From the NCBI RefSeq assembly GCF_013368755.1, contig NC_049561.1:4216001-4280000 (forward strand): 64,000 bases of DNA, read 5' to 3'. Both the position numbers and the translations under genes were made by a program. Under the pieces are notes generated by a model. That model saw only the letters and a list, made by a program, of their open reading frames with translations. It ran no database searches and had not been told where the DNA came from. Of this stretch, positions 18,707 to 57,689 are shown in pieces. Position 1 is the stretch's first letter. Each line of letters starts with the position of its first letter. Origin of the DNA: Talaromyces rugulosus (lineage: Eukaryota; Ascomycota; Eurotiomycetes; Eurotiales; Trichocomaceae).

Positions 18707-19471
18707 ATGCCTTCTATCTCAGGTCATTCACTCCTCGTCATCGGCGGCTCCTCAGGAATAGGGTTTGGGGTCGCACAACTTGCCTTACAACAGGGTCTCA
18801 GCGTGGCGATTGCTTCATCGAATAAATCTCGTGTCGATAATGCTGTCAAAAGATTGAAAGATGCTTCCCAACCCGAACCGATCAAGGTTGCGGGATACAC
18901 GGTTGACTTGAGCAATTCAGACGTGGAATCCCAGTTGGAAAGGCTTCTTATCGATGCGAAAAAAGGATTTTATGACCAGCCGCTCGATCACATAGTATTT
19001 ACCGCCGGCGACTCACTTCAGCATCGCGAAACAAGCGATATCGACTTGGAATTTATCCAGCGAAGCGGGATGGTACGATTCGTGGCACCATTACTTCTCG
19101 GGAAACTTACCTCTCGGTTTCTCAAGAACCACTGGACCTCTTCCATAACCTTGACGGGGGGCAAAGTCGCTGATAGACCGATGCCGCAATATACAGTGCT
19201 CACATCATACGCGGCTGGAGTTGAGGGTATGACGCGGAATCTCGCACTTGATCTGAAACCTATCCGGGTCAACCTTGTCAGCCCTGGAGCAGTAAAGACG
19301 GAAATTTGGGGACCTGCTCCCGCCTCAATAGAGGACACTCTTAGTAAAAAGATTGCTTTGGGGAAGGTAGGGAGTGTGGAAGAGGCAGCAGAAGCATATA
19401 TTTATCTGATGAAGGACACGAATTCAACAGGAAGCATCATTCCTACAAATGGAGGAGAGCTTTTGCTATAG
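18707..19471 (+). CDS. Atypical short-chain dehydrogenase/reductase lacking the usual Tyr-x3-Lys pair
   Basis: A single exon of 254 residues from MPSISGHS; starting at 18644 would give 275. Seen: the nucleotide-binding GGSSGIG at about residues 12-18, VDLSN after strand 3, FTAGD in place of NNAG, the SITLTGG strand and the RVNLVSPGAVKTE segment that follows the active-site helix. At the place of YxxxK the sequence reads SYAAGV, so the lysine is replaced. This is also known from a subgroup of fungal SDRs that keep ASYAAG. It may still bind NAD(P)H, but the mechanism must differ or it may be structural. It lies between a Zn2Cys6 regulator and an exporter and shares a promoter element with the regulator. 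Confidence 0.85.
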   Translation: MPSISGHSLLVIGGSSGIGFGVAQLALQQGLSVAIASSNKSRVDNAVKRLKDASQPEPIKVAGYTVDLSNSDVESQLERLLIDAKKGFYDQPLDHIVFTAGDSLQHRETSDIDLEFIQRSGMVRFVAPLLLGKLTSRFLKNHWTSSITLTGGKVADRPMPQYTVLTSYAAGVEGMTRNLALDLKPIRVNLVSPGAVKTEIWGPAPASIEDTLSKKIALGKVGSVEEAAEAYIYLMKDTNSTGSIIPTNGGELLL

Positions 19472-24934: not shown

Positions 24935-26308
24935 TCATCCAATATATAGGCCAAAGTTGGCGAACCCCTTGTCATCTTTCAACCGCTCCATGTCATCCTC
25001 TCGTAAGCATATGCCGATCACAATCTCACCGTCTGGCTTCTTCGGTAGGAAATAGACTAGCCCTTCTCTCGCCCCAACGATGAACTGTGGTCTTCTAACC
25101 GCTGTTGGCTTTCCAAATCCAAAGTCAAGATCGTAGAATTTCTCTTTGGCCCATGAACTAAGTCTAACATCCAATTCAGGGACACTACCAGAAACAAAAC
25201 TTGGCTTCTGTGCATTCTCAGCAGTGCTGATTTGCGTTGCCAAAATGCGGGTCTTGTACTTTAACGATTCTAGGTCAAGCGCAGAGCGAAGGTCGTTTGC
25301 CAGGATACCCAAAGGCTCATCCATGACGGCGTTCATCGCATAGGTGTGGATTGTTGCGTTTGTCACTAGTCCTGGATATGAAGAAGGAATAGAAAGGTGG
25401 TGTCGGACATCAACATTGCGAAAAAGTGTTGACTTGAGTACATTTGGCGCCGTAAAACGCGGAAGACGTGCTCGGGTCATTGCTTTCCAGACAAAAACAC
25501 TTAGCACATCGTCTGTGGAGACGAAACCATTTCCTGGTACAGTTTCAGTCGCACTCGACTTTAGACAGGCTAGAGATGTGCTAGAGAAGACGAAATATGC
25601 CCATACGATTGGCGATTCTTTATCTTCTTTTTGAATAGGCTGGTTCTGACTATTGTTATCGACGACTTGGGGCTCCGAAACAGGCTCTGGCGTGTAGAAA
25701 TCAAGTAATGGAATGACACTCCTTCGACTCATGTTCCCAATACGTACTTCAGCAGCGGTAAACTGCTCCCCACGGCTGGCCTTGGTGAGAAGCTGCATCA
25801 CCTGCCCCTGGCCCGCCATGTCCATCGAACCATGCTGGCCATTGATTGTCAATAGGAGCCCCCCGGAAATGAAATTTGCCTGAACAATAAACACCGGTAG
25901 GTCCAAGTCTGTTATAGCTGAGGATACAAGAGTATTGTACGGTGCTATGTCTGACTCTTTCAACATGCTGAATGGAAATTGGGCTTTTTGGAGTGTGTCC
26001 CAGTCCGGCAGTGAGACGTCGTGTTTGCAATCCTTGACAACTATGTCAGGGCAACTCTCAAGAGGCCGTATCTGGAAACAGTCATTTTCCTTGATGACCC
26101 TTCCTGCTGTCCATGGAAAAGTAGATGACAGTACTCTAATGCCTTTTCTTAGGATATTGATGGTTTTTTGCTCCGTGACCGGGCCGCTACCGGGAAGTGC
26201 AAAGCAGAGTGTGATTTGCGTATACAACCTATTAATGCGCGGTTGCTGACCTAGAATGTCTAAAGGGAAACAATCCGACTTTTGTGAGCATTTTTGTAGG
26301 GTTTCCAT
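24935..26308 (-). CDS. BAHD-like / trichothecene 3-O-acetyltransferase-like acyltransferase
   Basis: A single exon of 457 residues from the ATG at 26308. Seen: the catalytic HxxxD motif as HGSMD at residues 159-163 and the structural DFGxG motif as DFGFGKP near the C-terminus, in the correct order and spacing for the family. The N-terminus SDCFPLDILGQQPRINRLYTQ matches the usual opening of fungal relatives of Tri101. These enzymes move an acyl group from CoA to a hydroxyl or amine of a secondary metabolite in the cytosol. The gene ends 158 bases from the end of the convergent C2H2 regulator. Acyl donor and acceptor are unknown. It could tailor or detoxify the product handled by the neighbouring exporter. 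Confidence 0.9.
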   Translation of the reverse strand: METLQKCSQKSDCFPLDILGQQPRINRLYTQITLCFALPGSGPVTEQKTINILRKGIRVLSSTFPWTAGRVIKENDCFQIRPLESCPDIVVKDCKHDVSLPDWDTLQKAQFPFSMLKESDIAPYNTLVSSAITDLDLPVFIVQANFISGGLLLTINGQHGSMDMAGQGQVMQLLTKASRGEQFTAAEVRIGNMSRRSVIPLLDFYTPEPVSEPQVVDNNSQNQPIQKEDKESPIVWAYFVFSSTSLACLKSSATETVPGNGFVSTDDVLSVFVWKAMTRARLPRFTAPNVLKSTLFRNVDVRHHLSIPSSYPGLVTNATIHTYAMNAVMDEPLGILANDLRSALDLESLKYKTRILATQISTAENAQKPSFVSGSVPELDVRLSSWAKEKFYDLDFGFGKPTAVRRPQFIVGAREGLVYFLPKKPDGEIVIGICLREDDMERLKDDKGFANFGLYIG

Positions 26309-27041
26309 GTTTGGGCACGATATAATATTCTGGGCGAGCCAGTGATGTAAGTTCTGCGATTATGTCGTTCCCCATTCCCGGTAGCGGATCGTCAGATCAC
26401 GTTAATACCCTAGAAAGGTATCCCAGGGCCAATCGCATCGCGTCGTCGATGCTGCTGGAAATATATTTTTCCTACTAGATTATTGCGTAAAGACGCCTGC
26501 CCTAGTTGACCTTTATGCTTGATCTGGCAGAATCGACGCGTGAATTTCGAAGAAATAAACGGGCCGTTGTATGCCAGAATAGTTTAAACATTTAGAATTT
26601 GCTCTTAAAAAGGGTTAGAATGGCATTGTATAATATATGAAGGTAGTGGACCAGTATTCGCACACAAATATACAGCCCTAAGAAGGAGGGAAAAAAGGAT
26701 CTCTCGTGGCGAGTGCACCGTTTCTTGATGGATTGAGTGAGTTCCACCTCAAAATTATGTTCTGGAATGTGTAGATGCGCGTGAACAACTAATGGGATCA
26801 AATAGGTCTTGTTGCGTCATTACTTAACTCCCTGTGCGCACCCCGAAAGCGGCGGAAAATTGCCACAAATATTATTTGGATGTCAAATTTGCCGCGTACA
26901 GCTAGCTCATCATGACATATCTCAAGGACAAAGTGATTCTGGCTTTACAACAGTTCAACCCCAGATCTTTCTGTTGCGCACATAGACTAAATGCTCAACT
27001 AGCTTTAGTATTTCTATTTAAAAGAATCCAGGGCTTTCACC
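26309..27041. other. Intergenic region
   Basis: Divergent promoters for the acyltransferase and the HHE gene must lie here. No GATA element of the kind found at 30.4 kb is present, and I see no gene. Confidence 0.5.
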
Positions 27042-28112: not shown

Positions 28113-30041
28113 TTAGTCAAGGGTTACCTTGACTTCACCTTCTTGTACCAACTTCCAGCCTAGCTCTCGAAGGATTTGTTTCTGAATCTTTCCGCTTCCA
28201 GTTTGGGGGAGCGAGGTAGGAAGCAAAGCATGCGATCCGCAGACGAAGAAATATCTCGGAGCCTTGTGGCGGCCCAATGTCTCCCGCATCCAGTTTCGGA
28301 GATCTTCGGCACGTAGTGTATCGCTGGTAGTGGCATCTTTTGGAATTTCTAGAAACGCACCGACAACCTCTCCATAGTGTTGATCGGGTATACCAACCAC
28401 AGCAACACGAGAGATGGCGGGATGAGTAACCAGCCTCTCCTCAATCTCCAGGGGATAAATATTCTCGCCACCACGGATGATGATGTCTTTGAAACGACCA
28501 GTGATTGTACAATATCCATCCGCACTAAAAACTGCTTCATCTCCTGTCCGGAGCCAAACTCGGCCGTCCTCATCTTTAAGAAGTGTGTCTGACGTCTTTT
28601 GTGGGTTTTTCCAATATCCGCTATGTACTTGATAGCCACTCATGCAAAGTTCACCACGCTCCCCAACTGGAAGAGTGTGACCGGTCTTAGGATTAATAAT
28701 CTTGGAGCTAGCATGTGGCATAACCTTTCCGACAGTTGTAAGTCGGCGATCAATGGTATCATAAGTGAAGGCATTGAAGCATGTCGGTGATGCTTCGGTC
28801 AGCCCATAGCTACTAGTGAATTCTGACATGTTCAATTCATTGACTAAGCGCTGCATCAGAGTGTATGGGACTGGAGAACCAGCAATAATTCCGGTTCGTA
28901 CTTGAGAACAGTCAAAATCCTTTGGTCGGGGTAAGCTAAGGATGGACTCAAACATGGTTGGGACACCATGCACTGCTGTGCATCTTTCGCTGGAAATAGC
29001 CTGTAGAACAGCAGCAGGTTCAAACGTCTCACTAGGATAGACAATCTTTGCACCATGAGTAATACACGCGAGCAAACCGAGAACGAGACCAAAACAGTGA
29101 AATAGTGGTGGTGGGCAACAGAGGATGTCTGACGAAGTCAGGTCCATGCGATCGCCGATAAATCGGGAGTTATTAACGAGATTACTAGAGAGAACCTGGG
29201 TCAGCAATTCCTACTAAAACGAATTGTTGATATTTAGCTGACTTACTGGTGTGTCAACATCGATGCCTTTGGATTTCCCGTAGAGCCACTTGTGAACTGT
29301 AAATTACAGACATCATACGGGCTTATTACATTTGCATGTCGATAAGCAGCTTTTCTGGGTATGGCCTCTCCCTCGCAGATGATGTCATGATATGTTTTAA
29401 ATGACTTGTACTGACCACGGATGATGACAACGTCGAGGTCCGGAAAAACATGTTGTCGATCTCGAGAGTCGAGGTGATCAATCGCATCCTCTAGTGAATG
29501 GCGGCCAATGGTAGGGGATATAAAGAGAAGCTTGCAAGCTGTGGCAAAGATCAGAATTGATAATAATATATTGCTTAGAGGGACTGCCTGTATTGCCAAA
29601 CCTACATGTGTGCTCCAAGGCGTACAGAAGCTCTGCTTTTGTATAGGTATTATTGATGACTACCAGAATAGCACCGACTGCAGCGGCTGCAAAGAAAAGA
29701 GAAGCGTATTGTTCACAATTACCCGCCATAATTCCTATACGATCGCCATGCTGCACGCCCCGGGCAATTAGACCGCGAGACAGCCTTTCGCTTTCCTCTT
29801 GGAGTTGTCCATACGTCCACCGGATACTTGTCCAAGGCACAACGAGGCATTCGGAATCGCGATACCGTAGGCACTGAAGTTCGAGCAGTTCGCTCAAAGT
29901 CAGCTCCCACAAAGGAGAGGTTGTAGGGCCGTGAACAATCGACAGTCTCTCAACCTCACGATGGGGAGCTTCCGGGGCGATGTGGTTTTGTGTTTGCTGA
30001 AGCCGCGTAAGGGCGATATCCGACTGAGCGCCCACCACCAT
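28113..30041 (-). CDS. sidI: SidI-like acyl-CoA ligase (ANL superfamily), three exons
   Basis: Minus-strand exons 29606-30041, 29247-29538 and 28113-29184 join in frame to 599 residues. Seen: the P-loop-like A3 core FTSGSTGNPK, YGLTEASP (A5), WLRTGDEA (A7), GRFKDIIIRGGENIYPLEIEE (A8, abridged here) and the catalytic C-terminal lysine in QTGSGKIQK (A10). The enzyme should activate a carboxylic acid with ATP and CoA. SidI activates mevalonate for fusarinine-type siderophores; here the acid is inferred from the SidA/SidF neighbours. Residues 13-21 (RLQQTQNHI) nearly fit the peroxisomal PTS2 pattern R-L-x5-H-L. The second intron ends at CTCTAG, which restores the family sequence THHNLVNN. It shares a divergent promoter with the SidA-like gene. 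Confidence 0.88.
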
Positions 30042-30726
30042 GATGAAATAAAAGCTGGATGCTATTATACGGGTTTTAAAGTGAGCGAGAAAATACCAGT
30101 CTTCTCAAAATCTTTATGTTCAATTGGCTTGGTGCGATCCCATTCCAGCGGAGCCGAGGTAAGAATTTTACTCGGACTTCAGTCCTTTTTTTGATTGCCT
30201 GGCATGAAATATTTTCTTTTCTAGGCTAACGTATAAGTTTCATGGGTTACCGAAATCAGGCCTTCTGCTGTTTGCGGACCGATCGTGGCTCCACGTGCAA
30301 GACAATAAACATGTTTTACATACTGTCACGTCACGCCGTCGTAACATGGTATTTCACGGAAAACAAGGACCACCCCACCAAAATAGCGCAATACGAGCAG
30401 CTCCACCGCTCAAAGTTATCTGATCCGCAACGCCAGCTTTATTGGCGTTTGTGATCAGCCAACTATAGCTCCTAACGGCCCCTCTTCAAGGTAGCTTACG
30501 AGTCAGGGTTGCTAGCTCTTGTGCTATAGCTGCAGGATCGATATCGGCGCACGAGACAAAATCCGAATCGGCGTTTGATCGGCTTGATCATCGAGAGCTC
30601 TAGGTTGCATCTTAAGAGACTAGCCACCAGAATTTTCATTTTCATCTGCAATCTCAGGCTGTGGCATACTCTGTGTTCAGTTCAATCCACACATACACAA
30701 ACGATAACAGAAGGAAACAAGTCATC
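30042..30726. promoter_or_regulatory. Bidirectional promoter between SidI-like and SidA-like genes
   Basis: 685 bases of non-coding DNA serve two divergent siderophore genes. A GATA element at 30416-30428 lies nearly in the middle, 375 bases before one start and about 300 before the other, so one site could control both. Confidence 0.6.
30416..30428 (-). promoter_or_regulatory. SreA-type GATA element TTATCTGATCCGC
   Basis: The reverse complement contains ATCAGATAA, which fits the published Aspergillus SreA iron-repressor consensus ATCWGATAA. The extra CCGC is shared with the three copies at 40.2 kb. Binding is inferred. Confidence 0.75.
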
Positions 30727-32270
30727 ATGGAGCAATCCCAGAACATTCAGGGAGCAGAATCCCCATTTGAAGGCAAATCCATATCCTCTCCCCACAGCCA
30801 GCAATATGACATTCTGTGCATTGGTTTCGGGCCAGCAGCACTGGCAATTGCTATTGCTATTCGGGAGAGGGGACTCGCGGACAAAAACATTCTCTTTCTC
30901 GAACGTCAGGCCGAATTCGGCTGGCACACAGGCATGTTGCTGCCGGGAACAAAGATGCAGATTTCCTTCATGAAAGACCTGGCGACAATGCGCAATCCGC
31001 AGTCATACTTCACTTTTGCAAACTACTTGCACAAACACGATCGCCTCGCCCACTTCATCAACCTTTCAACTCATACGCCTTTTAGAGAAGAGTTCAATGA
31101 CTACATGAAGTGGTGCGCGTCGCATTTTGGAGACTGGGTTCAATTTAACCAAGAGGTGGTAAAAGTGGCCCCGGTGAAAACAAATGCTCCCAACCAGGCA
31201 GTCGAGTCTTTCAATGTGACCGCACGAGATGTGAAATCTGGTAGCACTCGACACCTCTACGCCAAACACGTTATAGTTGCGAATGGTGGTGAGATGTCGG
31301 TTCCAGACGGATTAAGGAGCCCTCGGTTCAATGGACAGATAATCCATTCGTCTCAGTACTTGCATACAGTACCTCGACAATTCAAAGATGAGAATGCTAA
31401 GTACCGTTTTGCCGTCGTGGGAGGTGGGCAAAGCGCGGTGGAAATTTCCGAAGATCTACAATCGAGATACCCTAACTCGCGTGTTGCTCTGATTTTCCGG
31501 GACTCTGCTTTGAGGCCAAGCGACGATAGCCCTTTGTGAGTAATTAACTGCCATACCGAGCTAATTCAAGCTTCTAATCGTCAAATCCCTCTCATAGTGT
31601 GAATGAAATCTTTGATCCTGCCAGCGTCGACGAGTTCTACTCCCTCAATCCCGCGAACCGCAAAGAAAGCTTGGCCAAAAACAAAGCGACGAATTATAGT
31701 GTCGTTCGAATGCATCTGATCGAAGGAATATATGAAAAACTTTACAGACAAAAACTGTTGTACCCGGATTCCCGCGATTGGGCTCTGTCGTTGATGCACA
31801 ACACTGAAGTTACCGGAATACAGGAGTCGGATCAAAAGGCAATAAAGCTTCAATTGAAGAACACTATTACTGGAACAAATAGCACAACCAGTGAAGCTTT
31901 CGATATGGTGGTTGCCGCTACTGGATATCGGAGAAATCCTTTCCTTAGTATCCTAGAGGAATTGAAGCCACTTTTGCTGTCGGGTCCAGGGAACAACGGC
32001 CATTTGGTCCAAAGGAACTATCGCGTACTGTTCCAACCGGGTTCTGTCGTCCGTGATGCCGGCGTATGGCTTCAAGGATCATGCGAGAATAGTCATGGGG
32101 TGAGTCTTAGTCAATTCTTCATCGTAGATCATCTGAGAGCTCGCTAATCCTAATTCCTCTTTCACCTACAGATCAGTGATAGTCTACTTTCCATTCTTGC
32201 TGTACGTGCAGATGAAATCCTGGACTCCCTGATGGCTAGTCGGAAAGCAATCAACAGAGCTAGACTGTGA
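30727..32270 (+). CDS. sidA: L-ornithine N5-monooxygenase (SidA family), three exons
   Basis: Exons 30727-31535, 31598-32099 and 32172-32270 join in frame to 469 residues. Seen: the FAD fold with GFGPAALA near the N-terminus, the substrate region QISFMKDLATMRNPQSYFTF, the NADPH motif VVGGGQSAVEI, SALRPSDDSPFVNEIF across intron 1 and the ATGY motif (VVAATGYRRNPF). This set is diagnostic for ornithine/lysine N-hydroxylases. The enzyme uses NADPH, FAD and oxygen to hydroxylate the side-chain nitrogen of ornithine, the first committed step of hydroxamate siderophores. It is a little shorter than A. fumigatus SidA. Whether it is the main SidA or a cluster paralogue cannot be decided here. An upstream in-frame ATG (30661) lacks homology. 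Confidence 0.95.
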
Positions 32271-32417
32271 CACCGGTCTTCGGTATGAAGATGGAGTTGT
32301 TCGTTTCCTAAGTGGTGTGGGCGTATATCAATTTATTCCCCCATCGATTGATGGGGATAAAACAAGATTGTGTCGTTGATTTTCTCATCTATCATTTTTG
32401 AAAAGCAAATATAATTT

Positions 32418-33502
32418 CTATAGTTTCGCACTGTTCTGCCTTGTCTCCAACAAAGCCCTCCCATTGGATAAAACCGTTCGGTTACCAACTTTGATATTGA
32501 ATCGAATTTCATTGAGACAACAATCCTCGTCAATGCCAGTCGATCCCTCAACCGGCCCCATATCCCACAACTGTATGTTGAGTGTGTTCCCCGGGCATAC
32601 AGGTGATGTGAATCGAGCCTCAAAATCACGGAGAGCTTTCCCGTTACTACGTCCGTAGTGCTGCAAGACTACTTGTGCAGCAACATTCCAGCTGAAAAGA
32701 CCGTGGATAATGATACCGCCGTACCCGAGCGTCTTTCCAGCCTCAGGTGATGCATGGAGAGGATTATAGTCCCCATTGAGTCGGTAGAGGTGAGCCGTTT
32801 CGAGTGTCGTCTGTAATATCTGTACAGTATCTGGTTTGCGACCAGCGGGGGGCCGATATTCATTCATCCTTGGGCCTTCCATATATGAATAGTTAGAAAT
32901 TTTGCTTATGCTAGGCCTAGGAGACAAACCTCTATTACCACCCCACCCTCCGGCTCCTAAGAAAAAGCAGTTTTCCCAGGAGCTTGTGTAAACTTGACCA
33001 GTTTCTGCGTCTACCAGATCGTGCACGCGTTCCATTACGGTTCCTTTACCAATCCCTTTATCGTATATACCGACCACTCGCGAACGGACCTCCCAAGATC
33101 TGCCAGCAGAAGAAACAGGAAGTTGCTTCAGAATTTTAATTCGTCTTCGACCATCTACTGCTCGTGTCCAATCTAGTTTGGGGTACCCAGGGGGGTTAGG
33201 TGTGTCCGTATTGCGCTCTAGAAAGTCAACGACATCTTCGCTGTCATACTTGAACGTCAAAACAATAGGGTATGTTGGGAATATTTGAAAATGCGGATGA
33301 GCCTCCTAACATATATATCATGGTATCAGTCTAAAGCTTCTGGATTCTCACGAGGGAAGAAAACGAGGATGTTGCTAACATAGAGAAAGTGAAGCTGGCT
33401 AGATGAATTGCAACCGATTGAATTCGCGAATAGGAGAGCGTCTCGTTTTGTCCATGATACCTTTTGGGGTGGGTATTCAAAGCTCAATTCTAGGACTGCC
33501 AT
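32418..33502 (-). CDS. MaoC/hydratase-2-type (hot-dog) dehydratase with peroxisomal AKL end, two exons
   Basis: Exons 33380-33502 and 32418-33305 join in frame to 336 residues. The first exon, absent from any single open frame, gives MAVLELSF...VSWTKRDALLFA and LHFLY, joined to EAHPHFQIFPTYPIVLTFK, the classical opening of fungal multifunctional-enzyme-type hydratases. The active-site motif reads YRLNGDYNPLHASPEAG, with Asp and His of hydratase 2, followed by GGIIIHGLFSWN. The protein ends NSAKL, a good PTS1. Such enzymes hydrate or dehydrate enoyl/3-hydroxyacyl-CoA. In fusarinine synthesis SidH, a crotonase-fold protein, dehydrates mevalonyl-CoA. Here an unrelated fold may take that step between the SidI-like ligase and the SidF-like transferase. 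That role is inferred from context. Confidence 0.9.
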
Positions 33503-33878
33503 TATTATTCCTGAAGCTTGTCAGGCAGATAAATGCATCATTATGTGTCAGGGTCTAGAAAAACATAGCTAATTGTGATGTTGTTTGTGCTTCGGCCCTT
33601 GCGCATTACTGCGGCAAATCGGCACGACATTATTACTGTGTTTCTCTCCCCCCAATTTTGTGGTTGAATATTAGCCCAATAATTGATCCAATGCCCAGAA
33701 CTGATCGACGTCCACTTTTGCCCTTTTGTCTTTGCGAGTTTCTTCATGCGGTATAACCGCTCCTTGAGCCATTCCAAACATTCCATGCAAATTGCGACAG
33801 TGAGGGTCGGTCTAGAAAATCGAAATACGTGGCGCCACGACTAACACCAAAGCAGGAAGAGGAAGAGAAGAAAATTTT

Positions 33879-33887
33879 TTATCTGAT
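33879..33887 (-). promoter_or_regulatory. SreA-type GATA element TTATCTGAT (core only)
   Basis: Core match to ATCWGATAA on the reverse strand, about 380 bases before the MaoC start. The CCG extension is absent. Confidence 0.65.
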
Positions 33888-33951
33888 GGAGGGCATTTAC
33901 ATGATTTGCTCGTCACAAATGCATTAATTGCTTACGGTGGGGCTTGTAATC

Positions 33952-33963
33952 TTATCTGATCCG
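33952..33963 (-). promoter_or_regulatory. SreA-type GATA element TTATCTGATCCG
   Basis: Second copy, 65 bases beyond the first and about 450 bases before the MaoC start. It has the CCG extension. Confidence 0.7.
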
Positions 33964-34434
33964 TGGCGGGATGTTACCGTTTATTAACGTGGTAATATAC
34001 GTACTAGGTAATACGCTGACTCCGATTACGGACAGGCATCTCAGGTTGTATTATTAGGCCTTAGCAGGTAGCTATACGAATATAAGCCAGTGGGTGGAGA
34101 CAACTCCCTTTCCTTCTCCGACGCATCTTTTCGTTGTGCTACACAGAGCAGTCCAGCTAGCTGTTGCTCCTAGTAAATATATGCAAGCTAACGCAGCAAG
34201 CTTGCAGCTTAAAAAGTGCTGTGCAGTTTCTTAGAGTTCGAGCTTGGTCGTGGTGGGAGTATATCTTTAAGCAACTAGGAGGTAATACAAGGAGGGGAAA
34301 GGTATGGTCAATCCAAATACATTAAATTTTTATTTTTTCCATAATTGCTGAAGGCATATATAATTTTGTGTTATCTTGTTTTTATTCTTGCCATAATTTC
34401 AAATGCTGTTTGCTCAATCTTATTACGAGCTTTA

Positions 34435-35787
34435 TCACAGCTTCACAGCCCGGTCTGGGTTTCCCTGTCTCACCAGCTTCTCATCTTCCGCCGAAAATGA
34501 AAACGACGAAATCTGGAAGAATTTGGCTCGGGGACACCTGACAAAGGCTGATCGCTTGTGAGGCAAGTCAATCAACTTCTCCACGTTAAACCCGTGAGCA
34601 AAGTCATATGCGAGTACCGTCGCGTTGGTATACTTCGGCTCGCCAACGACATACTCGGTACGCGGGTCATCGAGAAAGATGTAATGCATCAGGCTAGACC
34701 ACCATGCCATGACGCGATGAGCGCCACGAAACCGTACATCTCCAACTAGTGAGTGTCGACCGCGATCGTAGTCGCCCGCGTCATAGTATGCTCCTAGATG
34801 GTCTTCCTTTGCCCAGTATATCTCAAAATACGCAAAGTAAATGTCGTTGAACTTGGCCAGCACTGCCATCTGGTGGGGATCCTCGTGGATTCGACGCAGA
34901 TACTCGCGATGCTGGTCCAGTGTCCCTGTCTCATTCCAACCCTTGGCCACACGGGGATCGTTCTGCCATTTGTTGAACAGTCTCAGATGTTCATCATTGG
35001 TATAGTCGAGTAGGTCCATAGAAAAGAACTCGTCCAGGTGAGGAATATACCGGCTGTAGATCAATGCTCCAGGCGCTGGCTTGGCCAGCCTAACAGGATG
35101 AAGAGCATGGACTCTGGTTTCCGGGAACCCCGTTGTCATCGTCTGCTGTAGAGGTCGGACTGGAAATTCACAAACAGGTGCCCTGCGTGCTCCATGCAGT
35201 GTCGGACTCGCGACCCACGCCGGTCGTGATCCAAAGGGCGAGCCTGCGCCTTGCCAGAATGTCGCTCTTGACACAACCAATTGTCCATTACCTAACTTGG
35301 CATCATGAGTAGGTAGTCCGGGTCGAGGACAGGGCACTGGATGATTTACTGCAAGGCCGACACTTTGTAGTTCCTCGCCCACCAGCACCTCTTTCTGTCC
35401 CGATAAAGATAGCCGGAACAGCTCGAGTTCGGGTCGTAAAGAGACAATAGCGTATACAATCGCCCACACTTGGCCAACATCGGGAGGCACTGAACCCCTC
35501 CAAGCCAGGTGTACGATTGGAGCCCGCTGCGCGATCGCCCATACCGTATTATCATGTTGCGAAAGTGTATGCGCAGAGTTGCTTTCAATGGGCTCCGTGA
35601 AGGTGGCCGTCTCATGATGTAGCTGTCGCGGTGGAGTCTCCCCTCCATCCTGTCGCTGCGCGAGTACAAGACGAAAAAGGCGGTTCTTCCTTTCTTTGTG
35701 AGAGATTATCTCCAATTCGTAGCAAGTTTTCCACGGTTCGGGAAGACGAACAAGTGGCAAGCCATCCTTGATGATATTTCGCGACAT
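34435..35787 (-). CDS. sidF: SidF-like N5-hydroxyornithine acyltransferase
   Basis: A single exon of 450 residues, close to the length of A. fumigatus SidF. Residues from about 240 on form a GNAT-fold acyltransferase domain of the IucB/AlcB type (PF13523): YSRYIPHLDEFFSMDLLDY, then FNKWQNDPRVAKGWNETG, FAYFEIYWAKEDHLGAYYD, RGRHSLVGD and VVGEPKYTNATVL. The first 240 residues are a poorly conserved N-terminal domain also seen in SidF. SidF transfers anhydromevalonyl from CoA to N5-hydroxyornithine, giving the hydroxamate that chelates iron. The acyl group here depends on what the ligase and MaoC protein supply. The end AVKL is only a weak PTS1. No GATA element was seen in the bases upstream of its start. 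Confidence 0.9.
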   Translation of the reverse strand: MSRNIIKDGLPLVRLPEPWKTCYELEIISHKERKNRLFRLVLAQRQDGGETPPRQLHHETATFTEPIESNSAHTLSQHDNTVWAIAQRAPIVHLAWRGSVPPDVGQVWAIVYAIVSLRPELELFRLSLSGQKEVLVGEELQSVGLAVNHPVPCPRPGLPTHDAKLGNGQLVVSRATFWQGAGSPFGSRPAWVASPTLHGARRAPVCEFPVRPLQQTMTTGFPETRVHALHPVRLAKPAPGALIYSRYIPHLDEFFSMDLLDYTNDEHLRLFNKWQNDPRVAKGWNETGTLDQHREYLRRIHEDPHQMAVLAKFNDIYFAYFEIYWAKEDHLGAYYDAGDYDRGRHSLVGDVRFRGAHRVMAWWSSLMHYIFLDDPRTEYVVGEPKYTNATVLAYDFAHGFNVEKLIDLPHKRSAFVRCPRAKFFQISSFSFSAEDEKLVRQGNPDRAVKL

Positions 35788-36769
35788 TTTGATTTAATAT
35801 CTTCACATCAGACACTCATTCAAAGTAAACAGGCTACGCCACCATGGTAGAACGAGTCAACTTCACGTGCGGGGAATTTACGCTAAAAAAATGGCCAAAA
35901 TGGTCATTCGGAGCTCATATGAAAGGCGAGGCAGTGTTCTCGCTAACGAATCCTTGTCTGAAGTATTATTGGCCTTTCTCCTCCGTGCATATCCGATGCA
36001 ACTCTTGGCGATTGTACTACTCCAATGTATCAGGTCTTTCTGGTAGAACCATTCGCCAAAAAAGAAATTTATTTCGTGTTTCTCCACTGCAAGTAGCGCG
36101 AGACGGGCGAAGAAATAGTACCCGCTGTACCGTAATATTTTACTTACCATACATATCAATACGGCACATGCGAAATTACGCACTGGCTGACGAAACGCTT
36201 GCGTGCTTTATTGATTTAGTAGAAAGATGGTGGCTGGTTGTCGGCATGAACCGCGGATTAAATGTTTCCGAGGTCGTCTTACTCTTTGTCTGTCAGCAAT
36301 CATGCATACTTCAAAAATGCTGACTTGGGAGGGGCTGGCAAGATCTACAAGTCGAAAAGCGGTGTAGATAGGAACAGTATTTTCTGACCCCTGCATGTGT
36401 CTTCAAATATTTTCATTGACGTCAACATTTAGAATAGTAAGAGATGATTACATGTACATATGGATGTAGTAGCTAATTAATATATATATTATGTCACGTG
36501 TCACTTTGCACCAATTGGTTCGCTTAAATCTACTAGGATAAGTATGTAGACGTACAGTCACAAACAAAACTGCATAATCATCAAATAATACATGCAGTAC
36601 ACCCTTCCCCTATTACATGATCTTGACTCCATGTGCATGCTTGGATTTATCTAATGATTAATCACCTAGTGGTTAGTGTTGATGCGGTAAGACTCGTTTC
36701 TCTCTACCAACTCCCATGCGTGCCCCGATCCACGTAGCGACCTTCATCGATCAAGATAATTACGTCTGT
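35788..36769. other. Intergenic region
   Basis: AT-rich non-coding DNA upstream of the SidF-like gene. Frames on both strands show no domain. A TTAATATATATATTA-like run lies near 36478. Confidence 0.5.
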
Positions 36770-37770
36770 TTTTTGTCTAGTATGCAGGCGATGGCATACA
36801 TATAGCAATTACAGTGACGTTGCCACACGCTGTGATGCGACCAAGACTCTGTTGAAAAAGCCGTTCCCACTCGGCGTCTAGAGCACTGGCCGACTCGTTT
36901 AACAGGAGAAGACGAGGTTTGCGTACCAAAGCTCGTGCAATCGCAAGTCTCTGCTTCTGTACACCCGAGAGTTGGCCTCAATCTGGTCCAATGGAAGTAT
37001 CATACCCTTGGGGCATAGCCATTATTGTATCATAGATATTAGCTAGTCGACAGTGTGCCCACTGATTTTTGTGATATCCAGCCCATCTATCTGACTCTCC
37101 ACAAGGGATAAAATTGTTGACTTTCCAGCGTCCCCAGGACCAATTAAGGTAGTAAACCGGCCTTGTTTGACAGTTATGCTCATTCCATTTGAGTACTCGA
37201 CTTTAGAGCCGCCAGTATATGAGAACCAAACATCCCAGAAATTGACCCGAACGCCTAGGGGATCGTTAGTCGATGGGGGGTTAACAGAAGTGCCCGCCGC
37301 AATATCATAACCCCGAAATGTAGGTCACTGCGTGGATACTCTTGCTCGTCTCCAGCCAAAATTTCCGCAATTCGATACATCGCGGCATATGCTTGTGACA
37401 CGTCAGGTGCAAGGGTAAACATAGTAGCCCAGAGCTGAGCAATGACAGTAACGACATCAAGACAATGGAGATTTGTGTTTGAGGGTACTCCTGTGATTAT
37501 CTGCATTGTGCTCCACCAGTAGGATAATGCGTAAAGGAAATGACCCATGGCGTAGGCTACCGCTAACCATAATGTGGAATAAGCACTGTGAAAGGTAACC
37601 TCCTTGATTGGCCCTTGCAGCGGTGTTCAAGTGAGTAAGAAGCCACCAGTTTAATGGAGTTGATAGCCTCGACGGTAATTCCGAGTGTCTCAAGGTACAT
37701 ATTTCTACGTACTTGATCGATAGCGACATTGGAACATTCGTTCATAGACCCTGCGATCTCGATATCCAAA
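36770..37770 (-). pseudogene. ABC transporter relic (ABCB/MDR type, last membrane and nucleotide-binding domain)
   Basis: Minus-strand pieces in changing frames are collinear with the C-terminal half of a full-length MDR-type ABC transporter. From about 37770 down come ITVEAINSIKLVASYSLEH (intracellular loop), then MGHFLYALSYWW and FTLAPDVSQAYAAMYRIAEIL (end of the membrane domain). VNFWDVWFSYTG, Walker A as GPGDAGKST, IYDTIMAMPQGYDTSIGPD followed by a stop, [19 protein letters not shown] (signature) and [16 protein letters not shown] (Walker B) follow. The stop before the signature, frameshifts and the missing first half mean no working pump. In A. fumigatus the fusarinine cluster contains an ABC transporter gene, so this may be its decayed counterpart. 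Confidence 0.85.
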
Positions 37771-38345
37771 CGATGATGCCATTTGGATCAGCTTTCGTCA
37801 AATTCATTTTTCCACGTACGAAGAGGAATAGTTATCTTGAAATAATGCGTATGTCACATGCTCAGTACGATTAAATAATCGCCCGGTTATGTTACATCAC
37901 CCCTCTGCGCTTTATGAATGCAGGGACATAATCCCCTCTGTCCCATTCTTGGCTTATGTCTACCAGACTATCATAGAAAATATCCCCCAGAGTATTCCTT
38001 ACTGGTGTCACCTCCTAAGGGATTTAGAAAACTAAATGCTAGTGATATTTAACTGCGATCTTCTTTTCATCATACTAATAGGAATTTGATACTTCACCTC
38101 ATTGAATCATCAATATATGGATAGTTTAATTTAGTTACAGAACCGCAATGAATTAGACAATAACAGTTAAAAAATCTATGCGCATCTTCCAATTAGCCTA
38201 TGTTGATTCCTATCACTTAAAGGCCGTCGTAAACATCCTCAGCGCCGAAGCGACAAATGTAAACAAGTTCTTAGCTGTCTCGCTCAAGACTGCAAAAGTT
38301 AAGCGAAAGGGAAATCTCAAGCTAGCCACGCGACTATTCGTGGTA
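37771..38345. other. Intergenic region
   Basis: No gene is supported. It may contain unrecognisable remains of the missing N-terminal half of the ABC transporter. Confidence 0.45.
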
Positions 38346-39930
38346 TCAGGCGCAGATTGGCTCGCTGGCTAGAGACTGGGTCAACCTACAGTCCTCTTCT
38401 GGGGCGAAAAATGTAGGTTCTACCTTGAAGGGAGCATCTCCGAGGTGCATATAGTTCCAGCAGACTAGAGTATTGATGGTCAAAAAGGGTAAACTATCTG
38501 GAGGGGTGTGTTTCAATGTATAGACTTACTGGTAAAACCAAGATCATTTCCAAAGAACATTTGCATCACATCCTCTCCTGAAGAAACGCTGTTATCAGGA
38601 GGTCCATACGAAGCGGCCTGCGTGCCGACTGCAAGCCCCATCATAGGCGGTATGTCGGAAGCTAATTCTTTGTATACTGGCGTGATATTTCGAATATTTG
38701 CTAGCATCTTCTGGTGTATATTTGCGGCCGTGTATAGACCTTGATGCATAGCAGTACCACAACGTTTAATGCCAGACCAGGATACGATATCGCCAGTGGC
38801 GTGATGGTAATAGGCATTTGGAATGTCGCTGTTGAATTGCAAACTGCAAATTATTTTGTCGTTAGTAGGATGTCCAGGGAAAAGGACCCAAAATGCAGTC
38901 TTTGTGGGTATGCATTCACCTCGGTGTAATCTTCACGTAGCCATCATCATCCAGAACCGTAGATGGGAGGTATGTAGTGGTTGGGTGGAATTTAGAAACA
39001 GCATTTATGACCAAGTCAGCTTTGACCCGACGGCCATCAGAAAGTAGAACCTCGGACCCAGAGGTCTTATTCTCTATCGTATCAACGACCCGAACACCCA
39101 GGATTGTTCTCACTCCTGCCTCATGCACCAGCTGTAGTGCACGATCCTTGAACTCATCGGGCAGTGGCTCGGATGAGAGTAGTTTCGATCGTGAGTGTAT
39201 CAAAGTGACGTTTACATCAGGCATGAGAAGTTTCAACTCCGCGGCTATTTCAATGCCGACGGCGCCTAAGAAATAAGTCAGTTGCCCAGTGTATGGTCTT
39301 TTGGACAGGGTATACTTACCAGCACCGACAACAATGACCCCCTCCGTCGCTGCCTGGGCGGTTCGTATATGATTCGTCGTCTCTACAATGTATTGCTTTT
39401 TGGAGAGTGTCTGCGGTGCCGCTGGTGCCTCTCGTCGCAGTCCAGTGGCGGCGACAAAGTAGTCGTATGGAATTTGGACATCTCGCTGTGAGCCGTGCTC
39501 AGCAATTGTCGCGAACTTTTTCTCACTGTCGACGCCAGTTATGCTGCCCCGGACAAACTTGAAAGCAGGTGTTTGGAGAGCGGGAATGTCTTGGAAGAGC
39601 GTCCAAGCCTTTGTAGCGTATTCCGTAGATGCAAATGCCAGCGGAGTGCCGATTAAGTGGTCTGTCCACGGGGAGTTGATGTCAGCTCGCTCGATCATCC
39701 CAACTAATATTAACAATCCGGCGCAACTTACAGAACCCATCGCGCTCGTCTACTATTGTAATTTCGAGTGGTACTTGCTTGGAGGTATCCGGAGCTGCTT
39801 TTTCTCCAGTAAAGCGAGACGGCAAGCCATTACAGAGATCGAGAAGATTCAACGCAACCGATAGGCCGGCGTACGAGCCTCCGCTCACGAGTACTCGTGA
39901 TGGCTGCTCCACAAGGCGTGCAACGGGCAT
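38346..39930 (-). CDS. AIF/FSP1 (AMID)-like FAD-dependent NAD(P)H oxidoreductase, five exons
   Basis: Exons 39732-39930, 39320-39661, 38920-39265, 38530-38843 and 38346-38497 join in frame to 450 residues. Seen: an N-terminal FAD motif VLVSGGSYAGLSVALNLL, then VDERDGF joined to YHLIGTPLAFAS across intron 1, the central NAD(P)H motif VVGAGAVGIEIAAELK completed across intron 2, VADLVINA-like strand and a C-terminal domain ending in PFLTINTLVCWNYMHLG. This is the two-Rossmann pyridine-nucleotide-disulphide fold without the redox cysteine pair, as in AIF, AMID/FSP1 and NDH-2 proteins. Substrate is unknown; quinones and small metal chelates are possible. Three GATA elements 277-362 bases before its start tie it to iron control, so ferric-siderophore reduction is a fair hypothesis. 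Confidence 0.9.
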
Positions 39931-40590
39931 AGTTGGTCGATCAGACTGAACACTCAATGAGAAACCGGGGTTTGTCTGCACAAAAGAAAAAAAGCAGAAA
40001 TGGTATCGATTTTAGGCTGAGAGTTAGTGCAGAGGCAGTGGTGAAGCTAATGCGGGGAAAAGGGCAACGGAGAGTATATCGAAGCTGGCTTGGGCAGCGC
40101 CGGTCACGGAGTCGCTTGAGGATACCTCGGAAGTGCTGGTGCCGTGTTGCGCGTTTCCATGCCCCACCGTCATTTCGCTGTGGGCCAATGGAGGAGTGCC
40201 GTGCCGTTATCTGATCCGCCGCCCCGCTTCTTTGAGTTTATCTGATCCGCTGTATCGCTGTAACGGGTCCGTGCGATTCTTATCTGATCCGCGCGTGATA
40301 CCTTACCGAGACAGTATTTTATGACGGTAATTACACTCTTCGTGGGGGTGAAACGCGCTATTTCCAACAAGGCCACAAAAACATAAAAAGAAAGATAAAA
40401 AAGACACGGAAGAAAAGAAAATTATGAATGCAATGTCACATTTTTCTTTGCCGAGTCCTTGGCACTAATTTACCACTGCTGTCGCACCATTCTGCTTTTC
40501 TGGAGCCAGGCCACTGCACATCAGAGGGGACTCATACAGCACTCGACCATCAAGTGAAATCAACAAACTGTTTGGAAATACGTAATCGAT
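39931..40590. promoter_or_regulatory. Promoter region of the FAD oxidoreductase with a GATA-element cluster
   Basis: Non-coding region between the oxidoreductase start and the first recognisable piece of the siderophore-permease relic, so once probably a divergent promoter. The GATA cluster is at 40207-40292. Confidence 0.6.
40207..40292 (-). promoter_or_regulatory. Three copies of TTATCTGATCCGC (SreA-type GATA elements)
   Basis: Identical 13-mers at 40207-40219, 40238-40250 and 40280-40292, all in the same orientation, spaced 31 and 42 bases apart. The same 13-mer is at 30416. Each contains the reverse complement of ATCAGATAA. Confidence 0.8.
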
Positions 40591-55557: not shown

Positions 55558-56847
55558 TTATGGAGACAGCTTCGACTGCAGTTCATCGATGGTGCACTGC
55601 AGGCGATTCTGCACAAATGTGCCCATGGTCGAAAAAACTTGCATCGAGCTGACGGCAGGTTTGGTATCAGAGGGCGACGGGTAGCTTCCTGAAAGAGCGT
55701 AGGTGTCAAGGAACTGTTGAATCGGCTTGGACATCATTCGCAGACGGCTCAAAACGAGCTGGATCTTCATCAAGCCACAAGACTCGTCATCCAACTCGTA
55801 GCCGCCGACGGAGATGGGCCGGTGCACGATTTCTTCGGCGACGTGGTTGAAAAGCGTCGTATTGCTGGTGGCACTATCAAGCAAACTGACGTCGTTGAAG
55901 TCGACAGCTGCTTGGTACCAGGCCAGCGTTTTAGAAAAGATAGTAGCAAGGAGCATGGGAAAGGACGAGTCCTTGGGGCAGCTACACGCGAGCATGGTGG
56001 ACACGTTCTTCATCGCTTCGCTGTTGGCTTTGAGGACCTGGTCCATGGTCGGACGCGGCTGGCCTTGGGTGGTTTTCTGCACTGTTGAGGGCAGACTCAA
56101 GGCGACCAGCGACTCGAGAGCAAGTTGGGTGCAATCGTGTGGTTTGGTCTGGGGTACCATCAGCATGGCTGGGCTGAGCCCATCGGGCGGAGTGCTGGGA
56201 TTTGTGGTTGTCGCTGAAGTCACACCGGTTGAAGGCGCTGACGAGAACATTCCGGCGTCGAACGAGGGCGCATTGTAACTGCTGGGCGAGAGATAGACGT
56301 TTTCCGGGTCGTCTTTGATCAGGACATTCGGTCCGGAGGACGCAGGCGACTGCGATTGCGACGACGTGGAGGCGGCGAGAAACGAATCATCGGCCTGCTG
56401 GCTGTACGCAGCAGACGAGTCGGCGAAGAGAGGTTGCATTAAGTCGCTGGAACCGTGGCTGCTGCTGCTGGGCTCGCTGCCAGCCAGCACGCTGTCAAAA
56501 CTCCAGTCGGCTGACCAGGGATGGCCCAGATGCCAGTCGCCGGGCCACATGGCGGTCGCATTTTCGGTCTTGATCGCTTCCGGGCTGTTGCTGCTGCTGC
56601 TATTGGGACTTTTATTGTCGTTATTGCGGTTGTTCTCCATCGCCTTCGCCTTGGCCGACTTGCGCGGCTTGCCCATTCGCATCGACCGGCTGTAGTGGCA
56701 CGGCACCCCGATAGTCTTGCATCGCTGGCATTCAGGCTTGTCCTGGCTGCATTTGATCTTGTTCAGCGAACATCGATCGCACGCCGACCGTAACTTGATG
56801 CGCTGAGGAGCTTCGTTGCGGGGAACGGCCGGGACGACGTCGGTCAT
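55558..56847 (-). CDS. AflR-type Zn2Cys6 transcription factor
   Basis: From the ATG at 56847 the frame gives 429 residues without an intron; an open extension upstream to 57102 is not homologous. Seen: Zn2Cys6 cluster at about residues 23-50 (CDRCSLNKIKCSQDKPECQRC, then VPCHYS), a basic region MRMGKPRKSAKAK right after it, a long Ser/Pro-rich acidic middle, and from about residue 245 the AflR domain (PF08493): HDCTQLALESLVALSL, DQVLKANSEAMKNVSTMLACSC, LATIFSKTLAWYQAA and LVLSRLRMMSKPIQQFL. This family controls polyketide clusters such as aflatoxin and sterigmatocystin. No polyketide synthase lies within the window, so its targets may be beyond the edge or elsewhere. Confidence 0.92.
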   Translation of the reverse strand: MTDVVPAVPRNEAPQRIKLRSACDRCSLNKIKCSQDKPECQRCKTIGVPCHYSRSMRMGKPRKSAKAKAMENNRNNDNKSPNSSSSNSPEAIKTENATAMWPGDWHLGHPWSADWSFDSVLAGSEPSSSSHGSSDLMQPLFADSSAAYSQQADDSFLAASTSSQSQSPASSGPNVLIKDDPENVYLSPSSYNAPSFDAGMFSSAPSTGVTSATTTNPSTPPDGLSPAMLMVPQTKPHDCTQLALESLVALSLPSTVQKTTQGQPRPTMDQVLKANSEAMKNVSTMLACSCPKDSSFPMLLATIFSKTLAWYQAAVDFNDVSLLDSATSNTTLFNHVAEEIVHRPISVGGYELDDESCGLMKIQLVLSRLRMMSKPIQQFLDTYALSGSYPSPSDTKPAVSSMQVFSTMGTFVQNRLQCTIDELQSKLSP

Positions 56848-57689
56848 GATCAGGATATCGTACTCGGAGACGCAGCAGCAGAAGGAAATCAAAGCAAAAA
56901 GAATCAAAAAACACACCAAGATCCTCAGTTGGGCAAGGTGTCCAAATATAACACCGCCCTCTTTTTGTTTTCGGACCGTTTTGCTAGAAGCCTCACAGTT
57001 TGCTATTCTCCGACTGAAAACTCCGCCGAGCGAAGCCCTCACCTCACTCTCCCCACTGTTTACAGCCCACTTTTGGCTAGGGCCGGAGCCAGAGAGTGGC
57101 ATGCTGCGCAGTCCAATGACAGCTGCACCACGCGCCGCCTAGAGGCGCTGCTAATGCATACTAAGCTGTATAGTGCTTAGGTCCGGCGCCCACTCGACCC
57201 AATGGGTGCCCGTTAGGTAAGTTTAGCGGAAGCACTTTGCCATTTTCTACTGTAGCGCTTGTCTACTTCACGGCTCTCGCCCATCTGAGGCCAGCACTGA
57301 GGGCATGTGTGAGTCTGTCGTTGACTCGTTGGTGATGGGGGGCCGAACCATTATTACAGACAGTTGAGTTAATCTTTCCAGAAACACTCGGAACCACTTT
57401 ATTGATGTTAAATGAAGAGGCCGAAGCACCAACCGCTCAACAAAGCAAGCCACGAGCAGTTGAGACCGTCCATTAATTATTGTTGTTGTTGTTATTATAT
57501 TAATAAAACGTCAAATAATCTCGGCGCAGCCTATTACACCCCCAACACACCGCTTCATGTGGAGATCACGTCAGATCGTCAGACAGATACATTGAACAGC
57601 TGTAACCCAGAGTAAACCAGCGGCCAATACTAACAACCCCCCAGGATTCCCTCTTAAGCCAGACAGAAACACCCCGGATTACTCGCAGC
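56848..57689. other. Intergenic region with AflR-like promoter
   Basis: Promoter and 5' leader of the AflR-like gene, then non-coding DNA. No gene is seen. Confidence 0.5.

Follow-up and report, generated by a model that had tools for sequence, protein, structure and literature searches.

In Histoplasma, an iron-regulated siderophore cluster known since 2008 holds SID1 (SidA), SID3 (SidF), SID4 (an acid-CoA ligase), NIT22, OXR1, ABC1 and NPS1; the SID4/SID1 and NPS1/ABC1 pairs are each divergently arranged, and the NIT22 dehydratase is induced by low iron (as described in PMC2275787). The cop cluster of Penicillium roqueforti, which makes coprogen and has a counterpart in Metarhizium robertsii, includes the non-ribosomal peptide synthetase (NRPS) gene copA, the SidF-like copB, the ATP-binding cassette (ABC) gene copC and the pyridine nucleotide-disulfide oxidoreductase gene copD (PMC12278577, table 1). 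The sidN gene of Epichloe is described with only an ABC gene beside it, and a divergent NRPS/ABC layout is reported for sidN-abcI as well as for NPS1-ABC1 of Histoplasma (PMC3642064, section 7). Here these systems are compared with a hydroxamate-siderophore locus of Talaromyces rugulosus, located in a 64,000-nt stretch (the window; positions 4216001–4280000 of contig NC_049561.1, or C1) of a 35.76 Mb genome in six contigs. We hold with moderate confidence that this locus is a supply module for N5-anhydromevalonyl-N5-hydroxyornithine (AMHO) which, having lost its own synthetase and exporter, delivers the monomer to a ferrichrome synthetase of SidN type, while a ferricrocin route runs separately.

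Gene content of the locus and described counterparts

The original prediction, made from the letters of the window, had placed SidA-, SidI-, MaoC- and SidF-like genes here, covering every step to an N5-acyl-N5-hydroxyornithine. Manual splicing with GT-AG introns gives open proteins for these four and for a fifth enzyme gene, a pyridine nucleotide-disulfide oxidoreductase (Table 1), and by enzyme family the steps are indeed covered. The last exon of the SidI-like ligase matches Pfam AMP-binding (1.3e-43), the first exon of SidA matches Lys_Orn_oxgnase (5.1e-80, with the family supported for both large exons), and the MaoC and SidF proteins match MaoC (2.7e-21) and Acetyltransf_8 (1.5e-50). Against the PDB, the first SidA exon finds the L-ornithine N5-monooxygenase chains 5cku (1.8e-80) and 4b63 (1.9e-80), and SidF finds a chain named sidF, 7qf6 (2.9e-138 over residues 11–436); all three are presumably A. 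fumigatus enzymes. A hydratase-2 motif, NGDYNPLH, occurs in the MaoC protein; GFGPA and GGGQSA are further motifs of the locus proteins. Two features of the 36.0–39.9 kb region were missing from the predicted content: the oxidoreductase, which is CopD-like by family and position, and the relic of an ABC transporter. Together they make the locus look like a reduced form of a complete cluster already known.

Table 1. Features of the proposed supply locus (window positions) and of the distant synthetase locus (C1 positions)
Feature	Position	Strand	Details
SidI/Sid4-like acyl-CoA ligase	28113..30041	-	exons 30041-29606, 29538-29247, 29184-28113; 599 aa
Divergent promoter of SidI-like and SidA genes	30042..30726		685 bp; Sre1-type site inside
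Sre1-type site GGATCAGATAA	30416-30424	-	between SidI-like and SidA genes
SidA-like L-ornithine N5-monooxygenase	30727..32270	+	exons 30727-31535, 31598-32099, 32172-32270; 469 aa
MaoC/hydratase-2 dehydratase, Onygenales (NIT22) group	32418..33502	-	exons 33502-33381, 33305-32418; 336 aa
Two Sre1-type sites ATCAGATAA	33879-33887, 33952-33960	-	0.38-0.46 kb upstream of MaoC start
SidF/CopB/Sid3-like N5-hydroxyornithine transacylase	34435..35787	-	1 exon; 450 aa
ABC transporter relic	36669..37757	-	tblastn with open ABC frame of C1:2510010-2514053
Pyridine nucleotide-disulfide oxidoreductase	38513..39930	-	4 exons, 405 aa; last exon end uncertain
Three Sre1-type sites GGATCAGATAA	40207..40288	-	0.28-0.36 kb upstream of oxidoreductase
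Ferrichrome-like type II NRPS	C1:2515566-2529248		4561-aa open frame; 1.7 Mb from window, same contig
Open ABC frame	C1:2510010-2514053		1348 aa; divergent from the NRPS

Like the Histoplasma SID1 cluster, the window has SidA-, SidF- and SidI-type genes together, a divergent sidI/sidA pair and a NIT22-type dehydratase; the likeness extends to the Sre1-type motif and to nearly identical targeting signals, those of Sid4 and Sid1 (PMC2275787, PMC10470777), and the oxidoreductase can be paired with OXR1 by name only. The Histoplasma cluster as described has NPS1, an intact ABC1 gene and RTA1, whereas the window lacks NPS1 and RTA1 and retains only the ABC relic. With so nearly equal a gene set in Histoplasma, the clustering itself is already known. 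The observation that all monomer genes lie together was thus correct but not unusual, since SID1, SID3, SID4 and NIT22 are clustered in Histoplasma (PMC2275787); comparison with A. fumigatus alone had hidden this. The letter order copB-copC-copD parallels SidF, relic and oxidoreductase of the window, a comparison of order and not of strands, yet the content is reversed: the seven-gene table of the cop cluster has the NRPS copA and lists no sidA, sidI or MaoC gene (PMC12278577). The enzymes of triacetylfusarinine C synthesis in A. fumigatus, as described in PMC3709128, share with the window the SidI and SidF families and the SidI targeting signal, but the dehydrating enzyme there is the hydratase SidH and SidF ends in AKL, where the window has a MaoC protein, a SidF ending in VKL and a SidA ending in ARL.

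What is new is a probable supply cluster without a synthetase, with a broken exporter and with a fitting synthetase elsewhere in the genome; the families and their clustering are known. Among open-licence papers, no fungal AMHO-supply cluster without an NRPS was found by title or abstract start, NIT22 with siderophore returned PMC2275787 alone and MaoC with siderophore terms returned none.

A distant ferrichrome-type synthetase and the proposed AMHO route

The predicted absence of an NRPS holds for the whole window: none of the 77 condensation-domain matches of the genome lies there, and a tblastn with NRPS pieces gave, in its best 40 rows, no match below E 0.007 outside the SidI gene, itself coding for an adenylating enzyme. 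Of the readings offered in the original prediction, the genome best supports that of a building block destined for an NRPS encoded at another place. On the same contig, at C1:2.51 Mb, a SidN-like NRPS has three adenylation (A), five thiolation (T) and five condensation (C) domains, arranged like those of SidN as three A-T-C units followed by two T-C units. One Sre1-type site, ATCAGATAA, lies at C1:2514692 between this NRPS and the divergent ABC frame, and another, at C1:2520420, falls within the NRPS itself. Domain order, divergent ABC gene and an A3 closest to SidN A3 make up the likeness to sidN-abcI of Epichloe festucae, whereas the monomer genes of T. rugulosus are clustered separately (compared with the account in PMC3642064).

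The comparison with SidN by sequence was made through its A3 domain alone. SidN A3 (3ite), which is reported to activate AMHO (PMC3642064), is the top match of the C1 A3 among all PDB chains, at 478 bits; as a control, A3 of the T. rugulosus SidC-type NRPS (C3:3.87 Mb) reaches 277 bits with 3ite. Within the genome the C1 A3 scores 331 bits with SidC A3, 186 with SidC A1, 185 with its own A2 and 173 with its own A1, and no other NRPS exceeds 170 bits (71 matches; 73 of 81 candidates scored). A database search with residues 1–2145 of the 4561-aa frame lists, among others, proteins of Aspergillus brasiliensis and Fusarium falciforme at 56–61 % identity; a length rule excluded full-length ferrichrome synthetases from these matches. 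By these features the C1 NRPS is type II ferrichrome-like and probably joins AMHO blocks.

The Sre1 consensus of Histoplasma is (G/A)ATC(T/A)GATAA, of which ATCWGATAA is the core (PMC2275787). The window has 7 such cores, whereas 100 shuffled versions of it average 1.6 and never exceed 5. All but one of the seven fall within 28113–40300, a stretch picked after the genes had been seen, for which the genome-wide frequency (604 per 35.76 Mb) would give 0.21 (Poisson 9e-8); the seventh, at 19402, is within a short-chain dehydrogenase frame. Genome-wide the core is not enriched, with 604 occurrences versus 807 for the backward-read control pattern. The grouping of the motifs at the locus would fit control by a Sre1/SreA-type repressor.

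The SidI-like ligase has the N-terminal sequence RLQQTQNHI, resembling a type 2 peroxisomal targeting signal (PTS2); the corresponding signals are RLQQTLNHI in Histoplasma Sid4 (PMC10470777) and RLQQTLSHL in A. fumigatus SidI (PMC3709128, table 1). The MaoC protein ends in AKL, a type 1 signal (PTS1), and SidA ends in the PTS1-like ARL, as does Sid1 of Histoplasma; A. fumigatus SidA is reported not to (PMC10470777). The PTS2 of the ligase and the PTS1 signals of SidA and MaoC would place most of the pathway in the peroxisome, as in Histoplasma.

Among the 120 best of 902 database matches, the proteins most like the window MaoC are from Onygenales, Thermomyces (61 %) and Monascus (57 %), with names including putative dehydratase nit22 and peroxisomal dehydratase. 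Also listed, at 45–51 % identity, are hydratase-2 proteins from a wide range of fungi; one of these too is named NIT22, which means that the group cannot be told by this name. In a maximum-likelihood tree of 29 rows hand-picked from the listed matches, the window protein groups with Histoplasma and Emmonsiellopsis proteins (100/100) against the common hydratases and adjoins Monascus and Thermomyces; the NIT22 grouping is made through the Histoplasma protein in the tree, not a deposited NIT22 entry. The genome has five PF01575 matches, four of them outside the window.

The SidF tree comprised 32 rows: 30 of the 120 matches listed, the window SidF and the second PF13523 gene of the genome. For the SidF part of the predicted family assignments, it joins the window protein to one from Monascus (98/96), with groups from Onygenales and from Aspergillus/Penicillium alongside. 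The nearest relative of SidF is a predicted protein with 90 % identity along the whole of SidF; that of MaoC, likewise predicted, is 95 % identical over 83 % of it. MaoC and SidF relatives carry the tags EMPG_12886/12883 in Blastomyces silverae and AJ80_04005/04009 in Polytolypa; with tags three and four apart on equally long contigs, the pair appears to be clustered in both.

The ABC relic aligns in four pieces, in several frames and with stops, to residues 907–1343 of the open C1 ABC frame; it thus keeps only the C-terminal third, about the last 440 residues, and about two thirds are gone. For the piece at 37255–37626, this ABC gene is the sole other match in the genome.

Upon these genes, motifs, domain order and split layout, the following scheme of enzyme activities, product, regulation and history can be proposed. 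SidA would hydroxylate ornithine at N5, the SidI-like ligase would yield mevalonyl-CoA, the NIT22-type MaoC would remove water to give anhydromevalonyl-CoA, and SidF would join both products into AMHO. The SidN-like NRPS would then link AMHO into a secreted siderophore like ferrirhodin, ferrirubin or epichloenin. The locus would descend from a full Histoplasma/cop-type cluster that lost its synthetase and kept just the end of its ABC gene, and a repressor of the Sre1/SreA type may keep the genes off at plentiful iron.

A more far-reaching version, a siderophore swap, is put forward only tentatively. A complete AMHO supply cluster, largely targeted to the peroxisome, would have been kept while its own synthetase and exporter were discarded, and the supply would have been plugged into a SidN-type synthetase that lies 1.7 Mb off and brings a separate exporter; the NIT22-type MaoC would do the step of the unrelated Aspergillus SidH and may set the cis/trans double bond of the anhydromevalonyl group. 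If true, supply and assembly of a hydroxamate siderophore would be split into two loci of one genome, the remains of the old arrangement would still be visible, so that the swap could be tested by gene removal, and the NIT22 dehydratase, iron-regulated in Histoplasma, would be pointed to as the candidate for anhydromevalonyl-CoA formation.

A second sidA gene and a SidC-type NRPS elsewhere in the genome allow a ferricrocin route to be drawn alongside the AMHO route. PF13434 has 17 genome matches, of which the best four belong to two clear SidA genes and the other 13 score at most 41 bits. The second SidA gene, on C3 beside the SidC-type NRPS, ends in AVL and is 46 % identical to the window SidA. 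No ATCWGATAA occurs between C3 sidA and sidC; two close ATCWGATAA sites at C3:3862273–3862291 lie just beyond the sidA stop. The two PF13523 matches of the genome are the window SidF and a gene at C1:1.54 Mb, which was rejected as a second SidF for its very long branch in the SidF tree and which looks SidL-like. A ferricrocin route would thus comprise C3 sidA, the SidL-like gene and SidC, and the AMHO route the window genes and the NRPS at C1:2.51 Mb. No second SidI was accepted: the nearest ligase, at C6:1.01 Mb, is 46–58 % identical by piece, and no RLQQT-type signal was present in the frames examined, those of the ligases at C6:1.01 Mb and C5:2.14 Mb.

Points against the AMHO-supply reading and alternative end products

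Several observations weigh against an AMHO supply feeding the C1 synthetase. The two loci are 1.7 Mb apart. The best single-domain match of SidC A3 is also 3ite, outranked there by gramicidin chains that sum 205 + 182 bits; similarity to 3ite alone thus marks the ferrichrome family, and only its strength (478 versus 277 bits) favours AMHO. The pocket codes, mapped by hand onto ten gramicidin synthetase positions, differ between C1 A3 (DPASSGAIGK) and SidN A3 (DVGGGGVIGK); in the same mapping SidC A3 reads DVLDIGGIGK, and its L, D and I are replaced by small residues in both C1 A3 and SidN A3. The relic is only 28–44 % identical to the open ABC frame, which indicates an old homologue rather than a fresh copy. 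The SidF gene has no exact ATCWGATAA in the 1 kb upstream. Its product ends in VKL, which is not a canonical PTS1, the consensus being (S/A/C)(K/H/R)(L/M) (PMC3709128); the 20 best database matches of the protein all end in LKL, likewise outside the consensus, and 33 of the 40 matches ranked 21–60 end in SKL, AKL or PKL. The dehydration of mevalonyl-CoA is a predicted role for MaoC, assigned from sequence. SidH belongs to the crotonase family, and the 18 PF00378 crotonase matches of the genome, in 13 places and none in the window, might include a SidH. Finally, a dimodular A-T-C-A-T-C NRPS at C3:4.00–4.01 Mb is also present, and the genome was judged without a SidD or NPS6 reference sequence, so that the absence of SidD is not proven.

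This last point bears on the alternative that the monomer feeds an unrecognised NRPS of SidD or CopA type elsewhere and ends up in a conventional fusarinine or coprogen, which we regard as unlikely. The position of the window SidF with Monascus, beside the Onygenales and Aspergillus/Penicillium groups, agrees with it, as does the service of CopB-type enzymes to coprogen (reported in PMC12278577). The C3:4.0 Mb NRPS is of fitting size, but there is no ATCWGATAA in the surrounding 30 kb, its carrier motifs are GGNSL where both ferrichrome-type NRPSs have G(L/I)DS, and its A-domain pieces are weak against the AMHO-type C1 A3, at most 63 bits each in an intron-split gene that lowers per-piece scores. 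Tried as SidD, it was left without assignment. Likewise, each of 25 relatives of 1850–2420 aa (of 120 listed), tried as a source of SidD, best matches SidC or the C1 NRPS. The genome-wide search proposed with the original prediction has thus yielded a SidC-type NRPS and a second sidA, and no SidD was recognised within the reference set used.

The original prediction had also allowed for a free monohydroxamate as the end product, AMHO or a derivative. The locus itself, with no NRPS, would permit this, and several fungi are reported with free AMHO in culture broths (PMC12278577); however, the genome encodes an NRPS that would suit, having a SidN-like A domain and sharing the GATA site, and the AMHO of sidN mutants of Epichloe and of A. 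fumigatus sidD mutants is described as a precursor that builds up (PMC3642064), so that we consider this outcome very improbable. A decaying leftover of a former cluster, with no present function, is what the missing synthetase and an ABC gene broken and about two thirds gone might suggest; this is the least probable explanation, and likewise very improbable, given five open enzyme genes with GT-AG splice sites, GATA sites still standing, targeting-type signals or variants on four of the five enzymes and the close relatives of SidF and MaoC.

Neighbouring genes and a possible fusion

At C1:2878414–2880675, on the minus strand, AMP-ligase and crotonase matches lie side by side, each assigned to an 828-aa open frame; this may be a hydratase-ligase fusion.

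Next to the proposed AMHO-supply locus, an open acyltransferase frame at window positions 24938–26359 (minus strand) resembles trichothecene 3-O-acetyltransferase (PDB 2zba, 335 bits). A SidG-like role was rejected for it, its best PDB relatives being trichothecene 3-O-acetyltransferases; no exact GATA site lies within 3.9 kb (the nearest are at 19402 and 30416), and no open-licence paper linking sidG with trichothecene 3-O-acetyltransferase was found. On the other side, weak methyltransferase, short-chain dehydrogenase and catechol-dioxygenase-type frames occur at 43.9–52.2 kb of the window, and a Zn2Cys6 regulator bearing an AflR domain is found at 55561–57138 (minus strand); together these perhaps belong to another metabolite cluster.

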